This document shows, piece by piece, positions 45,163 to 49,784 of a DNA stretch of 64,000 nt. The stretch comes from Goekera deserti. Lineage in GTDB: Bacteria; Actinomycetota; Actinomycetes; Mycobacteriales; Geodermatophilaceae. Where the stretch lies: NCBI RefSeq assembly GCF_010685995.1, contig NZ_JAAGWK010000009.1:124001-188000 (forward strand), written 5' to 3'. Position numbers and translations under genes: made by a program. Numbering within the stretch: position 1 is the stretch's first letter; the number at the start of each line of letters is the position of its first letter. The notes below the pieces were generated by a model, which was given only the letters and a program-made list of their open reading frames with translations, was not told the origin of the DNA and searched no databases.

Positions 45163-45361
45163 CTGTCTCGCTCCTCGCATCGCCGGGCGGCCGGGGCGGC
45201 GCCACCGTCGAGACGATAGCGGCGCGGGTCCGGCACCCGGGGCACCGCCGTGTGAGCCATGTCATGCGGTGGAGATGGATCACACCCCGTCGGGGTCATG
45301 CAGCCGAGCTCTTCGGACGACGATCAGAGGGAGACCGAGACCGCAGCAGGGAGAGGCACCA

Positions 45362-46846
45362 GTGAGCAGCGACCACGTACGTGAGACCGACGTCGTCCTC
45401 GTGGGCGGGGGGATCATGAGCGCCACGCTCGCCGGCCTGCTGGACGTGGTCGCCCCCGACTGGTCGGTGACGGTCTTCGAGTCCGCTCCCGAGGTCGCCG
45501 GCGAGAGCTCCAACGCGTGGAACAACGCCGGCACCGGTCACTCGGCCCTGTGCGAGCTGAACTACACCCCCGCCGGCCCCGACGGCCGGGTCGACCCCGC
45601 CAAGGCGGTCACCATCAACGAGGAGTTCCAGGTCTCCCGGCAGTTCTGGGCGCACCTGGTGCGCTCGGGTCTGACCGGGTCGCCCAAGGACTTCATCACC
45701 CCGGTGCCGCACGTCAGCTTCGTGACCGGTGAGGCCGGCCGGGCCTACATGCGCAACCGGCACGAGGCGCTGGCCGCCCAGCCGCTGTTCGGCGGCCTGG
45801 AGTACACCGACGACCGGGCGCAGCTCGAGTCCTGGATCCCGCTGATGATGGCCGGCCGTCCCGCCGACCAGGTGGTCGCCGCCACCCGCTCCACCGCCGG
45901 CACCGACGTGGACTTCGGCACGCTCACCCGCCTGCTGCTGGACGCCGCCGAGGCGCGCGGCGTGCGCGTGCACCGCAACACCCGGGTGCGCGACCTGACG
46001 CGCGGCACCGACGGCCGCTGGACGGTGTCGGTGCAGGACCGGGTCACCGGCGAGCGCCGCGAGGTGCGCAGCCGGTTCGTGTTCGTCGGCGCCGGTGGCG
46101 GTGCGCTGCCGCTGCTGCAGAAGTCCGGGATCGCCGAGATCGCCGGCTTCGGCGGTTTCCCGGTCAGCGGCAAGTTCCTGCGCACCCGCTCCCCCGAACT
46201 CGTCGGCGCCCACCAGGCCAAGGTCTACGGCCAGGCCGCGGTCGGCGCCCCGCCGATGTCGGTGCCGCACCTGGACCTGCGCCTGGTCGACGGCGACCAG
46301 ACGCTGATGTTCGGCCCCTACGCCGGCTTCTCCCCCAAGTTCCTCAAGGCCGGGTCGCTACTGGACCTGCCCCGCTCGGTGCGCCTGGACAACCTGGCCT
46401 CCATGCTCGGCGTCGCCCGCACCAACATGCCGCTGACCTGGTACCTGATCCAGCAGGTGCTGCAGAGCAGGGGTGCCCGGCACCAGGCCCTGACCGACTT
46501 CGTGCCCGAGGCCGACCCGCGCGACTGGGAGCTGATCACCGCCGGCCAGCGCGTCCAGGTGATCAAGAAGGACGCCCGCGGGCGGGGCGTGCTGCAGTTC
46601 GGCACCGAGCTCGTCGTCGGCGGCGAGGGCACGATCGCCGGGCTGCTGGGTGCCTCCCCCGGTGCCTCCACGGCCGCCTCGGCGATGCTGACCCTGCTGC
46701 GGCGCTGCTTCCCCGAGCACATCGAGGCCTGGCGGCCCGCGCTCACCGAGGCCATCCCGTCCTTCGGTCGCCGGCTCTCCGACGACCCGGCCCTGCTGGC
46801 CGACGTCCTGGCCGACACCGCGCAGGTGCTCGAGCTCAACCGCTGA
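45362..46846 (+). CDS. mqo: Malate:quinone oxidoreductase
   Basis: A 494-aa peripheral membrane flavoenzyme oxidising malate to oxaloacetate and reducing quinone; it serves the TCA cycle beside or instead of malate dehydrogenase. It shows the FAD motif VVLVGGGIMSATLAGLL, AWNNAGTGHSALCELNYTP, the active-site-type SFVTGEAG and the C-terminal GASPGASTAASAMLTLL. Length is typical. GTG 45362 has GGGAGAGG just upstream. It stands alone and ends in a hairpin terminator. Confidence 0.97.
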   Translation: MSSDHVRETDVVLVGGGIMSATLAGLLDVVAPDWSVTVFESAPEVAGESSNAWNNAGTGHSALCELNYTPAGPDGRVDPAKAVTINEEFQVSRQFWAHLVRSGLTGSPKDFITPVPHVSFVTGEAGRAYMRNRHEALAAQPLFGGLEYTDDRAQLESWIPLMMAGRPADQVVAATRSTAGTDVDFGTLTRLLLDAAEARGVRVHRNTRVRDLTRGTDGRWTVSVQDRVTGERREVRSRFVFVGAGGGALPLLQKSGIAEIAGFGGFPVSGKFLRTRSPELVGAHQAKVYGQAAVGAPPMSVPHLDLRLVDGDQTLMFGPYAGFSPKFLKAGSLLDLPRSVRLDNLASMLGVARTNMPLTWYLIQQVLQSRGARHQALTDFVPEADPRDWELITAGQRVQVIKKDARGRGVLQFGTELVVGGEGTIAGLLGASPGASTAASAMLTLLRRCFPEHIEAWRPALTEAIPSFGRRLSDDPALLADVLADTAQVLELNR

Positions 46847-46878: not shown

Positions 46879-47844
46879 TCAGCGGGACACGACCGGGTTC
46901 AGCGGGGTGTCGATCACCTCTCCGGGTGCGGCACCGGGCAGGAACTGCTGCCACTCCCCGGACACCAGCGTCGGGGTCGGCACCACCCGGGCGCCGTCGG
47001 CGAAGTAGGTGGTCGCCAGCACCATCCGGGACGCCGTCGTGCGGTTGGCGCCCGCGGTGTGGAAGCACAGGCTGGAGTGCACCGACAGCTCCCCCAGCTC
47101 GAACGGCCCGTCCTCCACCGAGACCCCCGCCTCCCGGAACGCCGCCGACACCGCCCGGTCGTAGCTAGCGTCGGAGGTGGAGAACGGCACGTCGGCCACC
47201 AGGCGGTGCAGGTCGGTGCCGCGGGCGAAGGACAGCGGGCCCATCTCCTGCGGCGTGGCCTGCAGCGGCAGCCACACCGTGGCCACCGCCTGGCTGTCGA
47301 TCGGGAAGTGGTGGTCGTCGAAGTGCCACGGGGTGCGGCCGCAGCCGGACTCCTTGGCCAGCACGTTGTCGTGGTAGACGCGCACGTCGTCCACCCCGAG
47401 CAGGTCGGCCACGATCCGGCCCAGCCGCCGGCTGAGCACGAACTCGGCGATGCCGGCGTCCTCGGTCCACATCAGCTCCCGGCTGGTGAACCGGCCCGGC
47501 TCCGGCCGCCGCCCGCCGGCCGCCATCAGGTCGACCAGCCGCTGCCGCAGCAGGCCGAGCGCGGCGGGGGTGAGCACCGCGGGCAGCTTGACGAAGCCGT
47601 CGCGGGCGAAGGCCGCGCGGTGCGCCTCGGTGACCGGGTACACCTCGGCCAGCAGCGCGTCGAGCTCGGCCGCGGCCGGTGCCGGCACGGCCGCCGGCGG
47701 CGACACCTCCAGCAGCGGGGCCGGCTCGCCGTCGGTGTTGTCGGCCAGGGTCAGGTACCAGTCCCACCACTGCTCGTTGTCGCCCTGCCAGGCGCGGTCC
47801 AACCCGTCGCGCGCGGCGTGGTCCTGGGAGAGGTTGCCGCTCAC
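46879..47844 (-). CDS. Phytanoyl-CoA dioxygenase (PhyH)-family 2-oxoglutarate/Fe(II) oxygenase
   Basis: A 321-aa protein. The first 75 residues include a Trp-rich segment (DNEQWWDWYLTLADN) outside the domain. The PhyH domain follows, with iron ligands HFD in TPWHFDDHHFP and the distal His in SLCFHTAGANRT, whose Arg binds 2-oxoglutarate. PhyH enzymes hydroxylate diverse small molecules (phytanoyl-CoA, ectoine, natural products). Start GTG 47844 overlaps the methyltransferase stop by four bases, so the two act in one transcript. The substrate is not predictable, and ectoine genes are not nearby. Confidence 0.87.
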   Translation of the reverse strand: MSGNLSQDHAARDGLDRAWQGDNEQWWDWYLTLADNTDGEPAPLLEVSPPAAVPAPAAAELDALLAEVYPVTEAHRAAFARDGFVKLPAVLTPAALGLLRQRLVDLMAAGGRRPEPGRFTSRELMWTEDAGIAEFVLSRRLGRIVADLLGVDDVRVYHDNVLAKESGCGRTPWHFDDHHFPIDSQAVATVWLPLQATPQEMGPLSFARGTDLHRLVADVPFSTSDASYDRAVSAAFREAGVSVEDGPFELGELSVHSSLCFHTAGANRTTASRMVLATTYFADGARVVPTPTLVSGEWQQFLPGAAPGEVIDTPLNPVVSR

Positions 47845-48779
47845 GCCTGCACCTCCGCCTGCGCCGCGGCCGTGGGCTGCGGAGCGGTGGCCACCGGGCG
47901 GGTGGTCACCAGCCGGACCTCGTGGCTGAACACCCAGCGGTCGCCGCGCTCGCAGGAGCGCAGGTAGGCCCCGACCTGGGGGTCGGCGAGCATCTGGTCC
48001 AGCGACACCGTGTCGTCGAAGGCGCAGCGCTGCAGGAAGCCCTCCGCCGTCGCCCGGTCCTCCCGGGCCACCGAGGTCTCGTAGCGCAGCGTGGGGCCCT
48101 CGGCGGTGACGCCGCAGCCGGCCAGCCCGGCGACCAGCTGCTCGACGGTGCTGTACGGCACCCGGGAGCCGGACGGGTCGAAGGAGCGCCGGAAGACCTC
48201 GTCGAACACCAGGTAGTGCGACTGCCCGGTGGCCTGGGCGATGACGCCGAGCCCGCCGGGGGCGACGGCCTCGGCGAACCGGCGCATCGCGGCCGGCACC
48301 TCCTCGGCCGGCACCGCGTACAGCCCGTGCAGCGACCAGACGACGTCGTAGCCGCCCTCGGGCACGGCCAGCTCCTGCAGCGTGCACTCGTGGTCGGCGG
48401 CACCCACGAACGGCGGCTGCAGCTGGCCGCGGGCCTCGGCCAGGCTGAACGCCGAGGGGTCGAGCAGGTCGGTGTGCACGGTGAGCGCGCCGGCGAGGGC
48501 GCGCACGGCGGGGCGGGCGAGCAGCGCGGCCGGGAACTTGCCGCTGCCGCAGGCGACGTCCAGCAGCCGGACGGCGTCGCGGCCGGCGGCCACCCGGGTG
48601 AGCTCGGCCGCCCAGTCGACGGCGGTGGCGAGCTGGCGGTAGTCCTCGGTGGCGAGGGCGTAGAAGGCCTCCATGCCGGTGCGGCCGGCCTCCGACCAGT
48701 GCTCCAGGCTGGCGGCGGAGGTGGCGGTGGGTGGGGGCGTCCGGGGGTCTGCGGGCGCGTGAGCTGGGGAGGAGGGCAC
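47841..48779 (-). CDS. Class I SAM-dependent methyltransferase (cluster with PhyH)
   Basis: A 312-aa methyltransferase with motif I VRLLDVACGSGKFPAALL, an acidic ribose ligand in TVHTDLLDPS, and post-I motif DVVWSLHGLYAVP. The N-terminus is Pro/Ala-rich; the C-terminal 20 residues are a Thr/Ala/Gln tail. Substrate unknown. It is co-transcribed with the PhyH oxygenase gene, which suggests successive methylation and hydroxylation of one compound. It is divergent from another methyltransferase gene 102 bases away. GTG 48779 has no clear ribosome-binding site. Confidence 0.86.
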   Translation of the reverse strand: MPSSPAHAPADPRTPPPTATSAASLEHWSEAGRTGMEAFYALATEDYRQLATAVDWAAELTRVAAGRDAVRLLDVACGSGKFPAALLARPAVRALAGALTVHTDLLDPSAFSLAEARGQLQPPFVGAADHECTLQELAVPEGGYDVVWSLHGLYAVPAEEVPAAMRRFAEAVAPGGLGVIAQATGQSHYLVFDEVFRRSFDPSGSRVPYSTVEQLVAGLAGCGVTAEGPTLRYETSVAREDRATAEGFLQRCAFDDTVSLDQMLADPQVGAYLRSCERGDRWVFSHEVRLVTTRPVATAPQPTAAAQAEVQA

Positions 48780-48868
48780 ACCCCAGGGTGGGCCGCGCTC
48801 CGCGCCCTGTCCACCTCCGGCCCCCGGCCCGCCCGGTCCGGGCCCGCCGCCGGGTCGCTCAGGTGTGG

Positions 48869-48874
48869 TTCAGT
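48869..48874 (+). promoter_or_regulatory. Possible leaderless -10 element of the divergent methyltransferase
   Basis: TTCAGT, spacer CGCAGTG (7 bases), then GTG 48882. It is the weakest match to TANNNT of the set. Confidence 0.3.
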
Positions 48875-48881
48875 CGCAGTG

Positions 48882-49784
48882 GTGACCGACCCCGCCGCGC
48901 TGTCCGCCCTGCGTTCGATGCTCGTCCGCAGGGCACCGCTGGCCGCCCTCACCGGCGGCGCCTACGCGGCCGCGCACCTGCCCTACGAGCAGCGCAGCGA
49001 CCAGCGCGCCCTGCTCGCCGACTGGCTGGCGCAGCGACTGTCCGTGCTCGCGGACCGTCCGGCCGGGGCGCCCCCGCTGTCGGTGCTCAGCATCGGCGCC
49101 GGCGACGGCAGCGTGGACGTGCCGCTGGCCGCCCGGATGGCGGCCGGTGCGCGCGGGCTGCGCTGGGTCGTCGTCGAGCCCGACCCCGTCGTCGGGGCCG
49201 TGTGCCGGGACCGGCTGAGCGGCTCGGTCCGGCCGCGACCCGACGTGCGCCTGCACGCCGGGCCGTTCGAGACCCTCGCCGACACGGTGGGCGAGGAGTG
49301 CTTCGACGTGGTGCTCGCGGTGCACTCGCTGTACTACGTGCCCGACCTGGCCGCGGCGCTGCGCGCGGCGCGGCGGCGGCTGGCCCCCGGCGGCACGCTG
49401 GTCACCCTGCTGGCCCCGCTGGAGGACCTGTGCCGGCTGACCGCCGCGGTCACCCCGCCCGCCGCGCCGCCGGGGGCGTCCGGCCCGGCCGACTCGCAGT
49501 GGTGGAGCGGGGACCTGACCCGGGCGCTGGGCCCGGCCGGGCTCACCGCGACGGTGTGCCGGATCACCGGCCGGCTGGACGTCACCGACTGCTTCGACCC
49601 CGGGTCCGGCGACGGGCGGCTGGTGCTGGACTTCCTGACCCAGGCCCGCTGCGACGGGCTGACCGCGACCGAGCGCGGCGTCCTGCTCGACGCGCTGCGC
49701 AGCATCGCCACCACCGAGGGCGGCCGGCTCGTCGTCGAGCACCCGGTCGACGCCGTGCTCAGCACGCCGTCCTCGGCCACCTGA
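48882..49784 (+). CDS. Class I SAM-dependent methyltransferase (divergent)
   Basis: A 300-aa methyltransferase: motif I LSVLSIGAGDGSVDVPLA, acidic ligand in WVVVEPDPVVG, then CFDVVLAVHSLYYVPDLAAALRAARRRL. This arrangement resembles histamine N-methyltransferase-like and other small-molecule methyltransferases, but the sequence does not fix a substrate. It is transcribed away from the MT-PhyH pair, probably from the shared 100-base gap. A functional link is inferred from position only. It is convergent with the antiporter gene. Confidence 0.85.
   Translation: MTDPAALSALRSMLVRRAPLAALTGGAYAAAHLPYEQRSDQRALLADWLAQRLSVLADRPAGAPPLSVLSIGAGDGSVDVPLAARMAAGARGLRWVVVEPDPVVGAVCRDRLSGSVRPRPDVRLHAGPFETLADTVGEECFDVVLAVHSLYYVPDLAAALRAARRRLAPGGTLVTLLAPLEDLCRLTAAVTPPAAPPGASGPADSQWWSGDLTRALGPAGLTATVCRITGRLDVTDCFDPGSGDGRLVLDFLTQARCDGLTATERGVLLDALRSIATTEGGRLVVEHPVDAVLSTPSSAT

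Follow-up and report, generated by a model that had tools for sequence, protein, structure and literature searches.

The described systems closest to the gene group treated here are the ergothioneine pathway with its enzymes EgtD (which trimethylates histidine) and EgtB, human histamine N-methyltransferase (HNMT) and a few structurally solved PhyH-type oxygenases. The gene group lies in a 64,000-nt stretch of Goekera deserti DNA (contig NZ_JAAGWK010000009.1, positions 124,001 to 188,000), referred to below as the window, and encodes a PhyH-family Fe(II)/2-oxoglutarate oxygenase (PhyH) and two class I S-adenosylmethionine (SAM) methyltransferases (MT1 and MT2). With the ergothioneine pathway it probably has the EgtD-catalyzed first step in common, and egtD is linked to the PhyH gene in several lineages; EgtB, in contrast, is untied to PhyH in our SAR11 sample, where PhyH and its methyltransferases appear to occupy the place of EgtB. 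Among solved structures, the closest relatives of PhyH by profile are SnoK (E = 2.6e-20), SnoN, MysH and human PhyH, which have the domain and the metal triad in common with the window protein but lack its additional N-terminal stretch, which is about 70 residues long and contains the motif WWDWY; to our knowledge, none of the four acts on histidine derivatives. Human HNMT (PDB 1JQD, 2AOU) is the best PDB match to MT2 by sequence and, in terms of predicted fold (about 260 residues), to MT1 as well as MT2, whereas MT1 and MT2 are bacterial, clustered with an oxygenase and 14–20% identical to HNMT in structural alignments. According to the account in PMC3660329, chicken carnosine N-methyltransferase is an HNMT-like protein that converts carnosine to anserine in birds, and thus the HNMT fold has already been turned to other histidine derivatives. 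We propose that the module in the window probably oxidizes and methylates one histidine-derived small molecule, in what would be a putative new branch of histidine-betaine metabolism.

Results

PhyH is encoded at 46879..47844 on the minus strand of the window (321 aa, GTG start), MT1 at 47841..48779 on the same strand (312 aa) and MT2 at 48882..49784 on the plus strand (300 aa). When 112 Geodermatophilaceae genomes were searched with PhyH, six full-length matches (77–100% identity) and one fragment at a contig edge (G081) were obtained, and the order of divergent MT2, MT1 and PhyH, next to the malate:quinone oxidoreductase gene mqo, was kept in all six genomes with a full-length protein. In a class-wide sample, full-length PhyH occurred in only 3 of 394 genomes (G000, G430 with 52% and G654 with 51% identity); G430 and G654, from two other actinobacterial families, encode MT1-PhyH plus a divergent MT2 at 37–46% identity, the G654 contig ending within MT2. 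Two Actinomycetospora have MT1-PhyH with no MT2 alongside, and genome-wide searches for MT2 gave a partial match of 30 bits in one of them and none in the other. We further collected PhyH loci from named records and took the best 80 of 102, comprising 63 SAR11 and 17 non-SAR11 loci by record title. MT1 is common to Actinobacteria and Proteobacteria: it was present in 15 of the 17 non-SAR11 loci (about 4 kb away from PhyH in L031) and on another contig in both genomes whose loci lacked it. MT2 was found in 4 of these loci, and a third methyltransferase, MT3, in 11, i.e., in every proteobacterial one. All 63 SAR11 loci carry MT3 immediately downstream of PhyH and none carries MT1, which was likewise not found genome-wide in 17 of 17 PhyH-bearing SAR11 genomes (14 of the 24 PhyH-positive SAR11-family genomes plus 3 further SAR11 genomes with PhyH; 6 others were included in the search). 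The locus L031, whose translation contains X, was omitted from the alignments behind the MT1 model and the genome searches and included in the MT1 and PhyH alignments used for PDB profile searches; L026 and L027 were omitted from the MT1 alignment.

The original prediction had proposed gene-neighborhood conservation as a check on the trio. The trio indeed stays together in the six Geodermatophilaceae and the two other actinobacterial genomes, but not beyond: MT2 is absent beside PhyH in the two Actinomycetospora, MT3 is present instead in the 11 proteobacterial loci and SAR11 has no MT1. Since MT2 is thus not obligatory and MT1 was not found in the 17 SAR11 genomes, the unit is best described as PhyH plus a varying set of methyltransferases, and as such it is a real, conserved module without a curated family name. 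Its oxygenase is patchily distributed, being encoded in 24 of 147 SAR11-family genomes (E at most 1e-30), in 3 of 390 genomes of the Jannaschia order and in the 3 of 394 from the window's class, a pattern that suggests horizontal spread.

A first line of evidence on the substrate comes from the surroundings of PhyH in relatives. Here, egtD lies within the fetched PhyH locus in 46 of 63 SAR11 and 4 of 17 non-SAR11 cases, and the product scored above the cut-off of the NCBIfam equivalog TIGR03438 (EgtD) in all three loci scanned; in one of them, L062, the genes for EgtB (528 bits; cut-off 360), PhyH, MT3 and EgtD (355 bits; cut-off 290.9) follow each other in that order on a single strand. The arrangements differ: among the four non-SAR11 loci, egtD is divergent from PhyH in Marivita, separated from it by a major facilitator superfamily (MFS) transporter gene in an Oleiphilaceae metagenome-assembled genome (MAG), and placed just upstream in two proteobacterial MAG loci that are close relatives of each other. 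In a phylogeny of 36 EgtD sequences, hand-picked to comprise 12 with PhyH as neighbor (8 of the 46 SAR11 and all 4 others) and 24 without, the neighboring state requires at least three changes on well-supported (starred) branches; some branches are long, and the grouping of the long rows L128 and L100/L105 may be spurious. Together with the differing arrangements, these changes suggest, but do not prove, that the neighborhood arose more than once. The statement in the original prediction that no known pathway genes are adjacent is therefore true of the window itself but not of its relatives, which often have egtD nearby, and this proximity points to a histidine betaine rather than to a lipid.

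Co-occurrence across genomes was consistent with this picture. Thirty-eight PhyH genomes were searched for EgtD (all those of the 17 non-SAR11 loci and of the 17 egtD-less SAR11 loci, plus 4 whose SAR11 locus contains egtD), and it was detected in 34, above cut-off in 30 and as fragments in 4, two of the latter being in two pieces on different contigs. Loci and genome searches combined account for an EgtD in 76 of the 80 PhyH cases; the window genome encodes EgtB and, on another contig, EgtD, so that use of the same substrate by the window organism is presumed. Within the SAR11 family, EgtD was found in 37 of 147 genomes (E at most 1e-10; 32 above cut-off), namely in 22 of the 24 with PhyH versus 15 of the 123 without, so that 2 have PhyH only; the corresponding one-sided Fisher p of 2.5e-14 is descriptive, as it ignores kinship and many of the genomes are incomplete. 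EgtB behaved differently, exceeding its cut-off in 11 of the 147 genomes, with 3 of 24 PhyH-positive and 8 of 123 PhyH-negative (p = 0.39). As EgtB is not enriched with PhyH, the oxygenase in this family tracks hercynine formation and not ergothioneine. Of the 37 EgtD genomes, 19 combine it with PhyH alone, 8 with EgtB alone and 3 with both, which suggests that EgtD in this family is mostly paired with either PhyH or EgtB, hercynine being the natural shared substrate. The remaining 7 (G150, G197, G214, G223, G231, G232 and G277) have neither PhyH nor an above-cut-off EgtB; their assemblies may be incomplete, or hercynine may be their end product.

The second, independent line is the fold of the window methyltransferases. 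For MT2, a sequence search of the PDB returned human HNMT as the best match (residues 33–257, E = 5.5e-7), and in a profile search HNMT (E = 4e-5) was represented by two variants that were the sole matches below 0.001. The MT2 model (pLDDT 83, from an alignment of five rows) had five HNMT chains on top in a Foldseek search (4.0e-18; next protein 2.2e-11), and superposition gave Z = 25.2 with an rmsd of 3.4 over 269 aligned residues (next protein Z = 19.4), so that the predicted HNMT fold extends along the whole chain. MT1 had no HNMT among its PDB sequence or profile matches. Its model (pLDDT 89, 14 alignment rows) nevertheless ranked HNMT first in Foldseek (4.1e-14; next protein 5.4e-11) and in superposition (Z = 20.6, rmsd 3.5, 264 aligned residues; next protein Z = 18.2), the runners-up being 4VPMT2 (18.2) and juvenile hormone acid O-methyltransferase (17.6). 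In the profile alignment of MT2 with HNMT, pocket position Q143, which we take to be a histamine contact, is replaced by H148, and the tyrosine at Y147 is kept as Y152. Y147 is named as a histamine contact residue of HNMT in PMC3660329. MT3 was considered as a further HNMT relative and is not established as such, because the profiles of MT1, MT2 and MT3 are alike chiefly in the SAM-binding part that is general to class I methyltransferases.

PhyH itself scores 57.9 bits against the Pfam PhyH domain (cut-off 22), and EctD or any other named PhyH enzyme among the NCBIfam equivalogs stayed below its cut-off, methylphosphonate hydroxylase reaching 15.8 bits of the required 500. The iron-ligand region spans 47059..47325 on the minus strand, with H174 at 47323-47325, D176 at 47317-47319 and H262 at 47059-47061. 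These three residues and R273, by its position likely the 2-oxoglutarate-binding arginine, are invariant in 15 aligned PhyH sequences from Actinomycetes, Alpha- and Gammaproteobacteria, the window protein included, which bears out the intact HxD...H ligands noted in the original prediction. The Trp-rich N-terminal segment, likewise singled out there as unusual, is real (DNEQWWDWYLTLADN, residues 22-36; codons at 47737..47781, minus strand) and turned out to be a hallmark of this particular PhyH family. W19, D22, N23, W26, W27, D28, W29, Y30, L33 and A34 are invariant in the same 15 sequences, and DNxxWWDWYxxLA occurs in all 80 PhyH loci, a count that was partly selected since DNEQWWDW and WHFDDHHF were among the patterns searched with; beyond these loci, WWDWY is kept in L182 and L183 and occurs in 0 of 32 further, more distant homologs listed. 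As a family hallmark, the segment likely has a conserved role; one guess is an aromatic cage for a trimethylammonium group, which would suit a betaine substrate.

Other homologs were set aside. Those at 37–42% identity in 19 other actinobacterial genomes (E at most 1e-40; 18 in family f22) align only from about residue 32–74 onward and were not counted as orthologs, and of the plasmid homologs (39 records), the three that were read belong to sister families without the Trp segment and with other neighbors (GMC oxidoreductase, alcohol dehydrogenase, AraC regulators). Such sister families without the segment are also represented by L107 (5734-6786) and L184-L206, one of them lying next to genes for alpha/beta hydrolases and a GMC oxidoreductase on a plasmid of Streptomyces.

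As for the anatomy of the window locus, re-reading of the sequence and its open reading frames left the coordinates and strands originally given for the three genes unchanged. The stop codon of MT1 and the start codon of PhyH overlap in a GTGA at 47841..47844 (minus strand), an arrangement typical for translational coupling, as had been claimed, and MT2 starts 102 bases from the MT1 start across a divergent intergenic region (48780..48881), in agreement with the gap of about 100 bases previously described. Methyltransf_23, 25 and 11 of Pfam exceed their cut-offs in both MT1 and MT2, and none of the three proteins scores above any NCBIfam cut-off. A promoter and terminator scan of the locus gave neither a sigma-70-like promoter nor a terminator, although such a scan means little in high-GC actinobacteria. 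Directly 3' of PhyH and convergent with it lies the gene for malate:quinone oxidoreductase (Mqo; 45359-46846, 722 bits in Pfam), which adjoins PhyH in Klenkia and Modestobacter loci as well, and a Na+/H+ exchanger is encoded on the opposite strand past MT2; neither neighbor hints at a pathway.

Discussion

The gene neighborhood in Proteobacteria and the fold of the window methyltransferases are two independent lines that agree, and we therefore consider a histidine or imidazole substrate fairly probable. More specifically, we propose, at a probability of roughly 0.5, that the trio tailors hercynine, as the most likely substrate, or a close histidine derivative, by PhyH oxidation and by MT1/MT2 methylation, the latter likely at imidazole nitrogens. 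According to this model, EgtD would convert histidine to hercynine (histidine betaine), PhyH would then oxidize it, probably by hydroxylation in analogy to other 2-oxoglutarate oxygenases, and MT1 together with MT2 or MT3 would add methyl groups, most likely at the imidazole ring nitrogens. This would yield a histidine betaine bearing a hydroxyl and ring methyl groups, on a branch apart from ergothioneine, and SAR11 may use a shorter version consisting of EgtD, PhyH and MT3. The transporters seen in relatives (MFS in L097 and L031, a symporter in L031, a betaine ABC transporter near a second SAR11 EgtD type) are consistent with movement of a small zwitterion across the membrane. In L031 (6063-10563), genes for a sodium:solute symporter, for an MFS transporter that shares 35% identity with its L097 counterpart and for MT1 come after those for PhyH and MT3. 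The second SAR11 EgtD type (L150, L172-L177) has a glycine-betaine ABC transporter (OpuAC, permease) within about 4 kb in 7 of the 8 regions fetched, the exception being L178; the genes between EgtD and this transporter in L174 encode a TauD-family oxygenase and a protein with an HD domain.

Several observations weigh against the assignment to hercynine. An HNMT-like fold does not settle the substrate; moreover, the lead of HNMT is modest for MT1, as its four HNMT entries range from Z = 20.6 to 19.0, the lowest lying within 1 of the next protein, and the MT3 profile search of the PDB, at E 1e-4, yielded general methyltransferases and no HNMT. On the side of the neighborhood, egtD is missing from the DNA fetched for 13 of the 17 non-SAR11 loci, it adjoins PhyH in no actinobacterial locus read, including that of the window, and the three changes on the EgtD tree may equal one gain and two losses. 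The SAR11 counts represent non-independent events. No EgtD was detected in 4 of the 38 PhyH genomes searched, three from SAR11 and one from Rhodosalinus sediminis (L102/G147), where PhyH-MT1-MT3 is present and the genome search revealed neither EgtD nor EgtB, an exception that calls for explanation. EgtB, finally, exceeds its cut-off in all seven actinobacterial genomes checked (G430 and G654 were outside the EgtD search), so that ergothioneine accounts for EgtD in these genomes.

The alternative that fares best, although we regard it as rather doubtful, is that hercynine is the substrate of the proteobacterial versions only, and that the actinobacterial module acts on another imidazole such as histamine, histidine, urocanate or a histidine-containing peptide. 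The lack of an adjacent egtD in the actinobacterial loci read would suit this, as would the presence there of MT2 in the place of MT3 and the activity of the chicken HNMT-like protein on the peptide carnosine. Yet PhyH is a single family in both groups, as the window protein is 46–53% identical to PhyH outside its own family and has the same hallmark and metal site, and MT1 is common to both as well. Histamine itself is weakly disfavored by His148 of MT2 at the position of the presumed contact Q143, even though the tyrosine is kept.

Less likely still, the module might decorate ergothioneine or an intermediate formed after EgtB, for example by S- or N-methylation. Since EgtB also adjoins, upstream of PhyH, in 19 of the 63 SAR11 loci, these loci could serve ergothioneine; beyond SAR11, EgtB is above cut-off in 13 of 18 PhyH genomes, that of the window among them, for which reason EgtD alone is uninformative there. 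Against this stand the 19 of 22 SAR11-family genomes with PhyH and EgtD that lack an EgtB above cut-off, as well as the 8 that have EgtD and EgtB without PhyH. In Marivita (G146) and the proteobacterial MAG G145, which have PhyH and egtD, EgtB was not found either, an absence that is weak because both are MAGs.

It is similarly improbable that the methyl acceptor is an oxygen, either of the newly formed hydroxyl or of a carboxylate, or else another atom of a non-imidazole metabolite, with the egtD link reflecting a shared neighborhood of SAM or betaine metabolism. Class I folds do serve many substrates, 4VPMT2 and juvenile hormone acid O-methyltransferase follow closely behind HNMT for the MT1 model, and the second SAR11 EgtD type lies near the betaine transporter in most regions fetched; but the egtD-PhyH linkage is found in several differing arrangements, and HNMT ranks first for both window methyltransferases. 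Tailoring of a lipid or polyketide is unsupported, the neighbors noticed in relatives being egtD, egtB and small-molecule transporters. Of the original prediction that the trio hydroxylates and methylates one small molecule or lipid, a co-operating module with a small molecule as its probable substrate can thus be retained, whereas the egtD link to a histidine betaine speaks against the lipid.

The further claim that this is a candidate for an undescribed pathway is in keeping with the lack of a curated NCBIfam name and with our finding no description of the module in the open-licence PMC literature, where absence is a weak indication; the main text of an article on SAR11 habitat genes (PMC12636525) contains none of the terms 'phytanoyl', 'ergothion' and 'EgtD'. 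The chemical class that the PhyH module could make is illustrated by 6-methylhercynine of a deep-sea sponge, reported to be methylated at imidazole C-2, with radical SAM methylation discussed by the authors (PMC8779493), and by norzooanemonin, described as a methylated imidazole betaine of marine animals (PMC11342128). The former differs in that C-2 is methylated, whereas N-methylation is proposed for the module, and we found no gene link to either compound. Tentatively, and with the odds against it, the module might represent an undescribed biosynthetic branch that starts from hercynine, proceeds via bacterial relatives of HNMT and ends in histidine betaines that are both hydroxylated and N-methylated (possibly 1,3-dimethylimidazolium). 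Such a branch would occur in some SAR11 as well as in scattered proteobacterial and actinobacterial lineages, and bacteria might in this way be a source of the imidazole betaines known in marine animals, which might serve as compatible solute or protectant.

If hercynine is indeed the substrate, EgtD would open a second pathway beside that to ergothioneine, the oxygenase of which is present in 24 of the 147 sampled SAR11-family genomes. A new class of betaines would then be predicted in surface-ocean bacteria, and a function would be assigned to a PhyH family as well as to bacterial HNMT-like methyltransferases.

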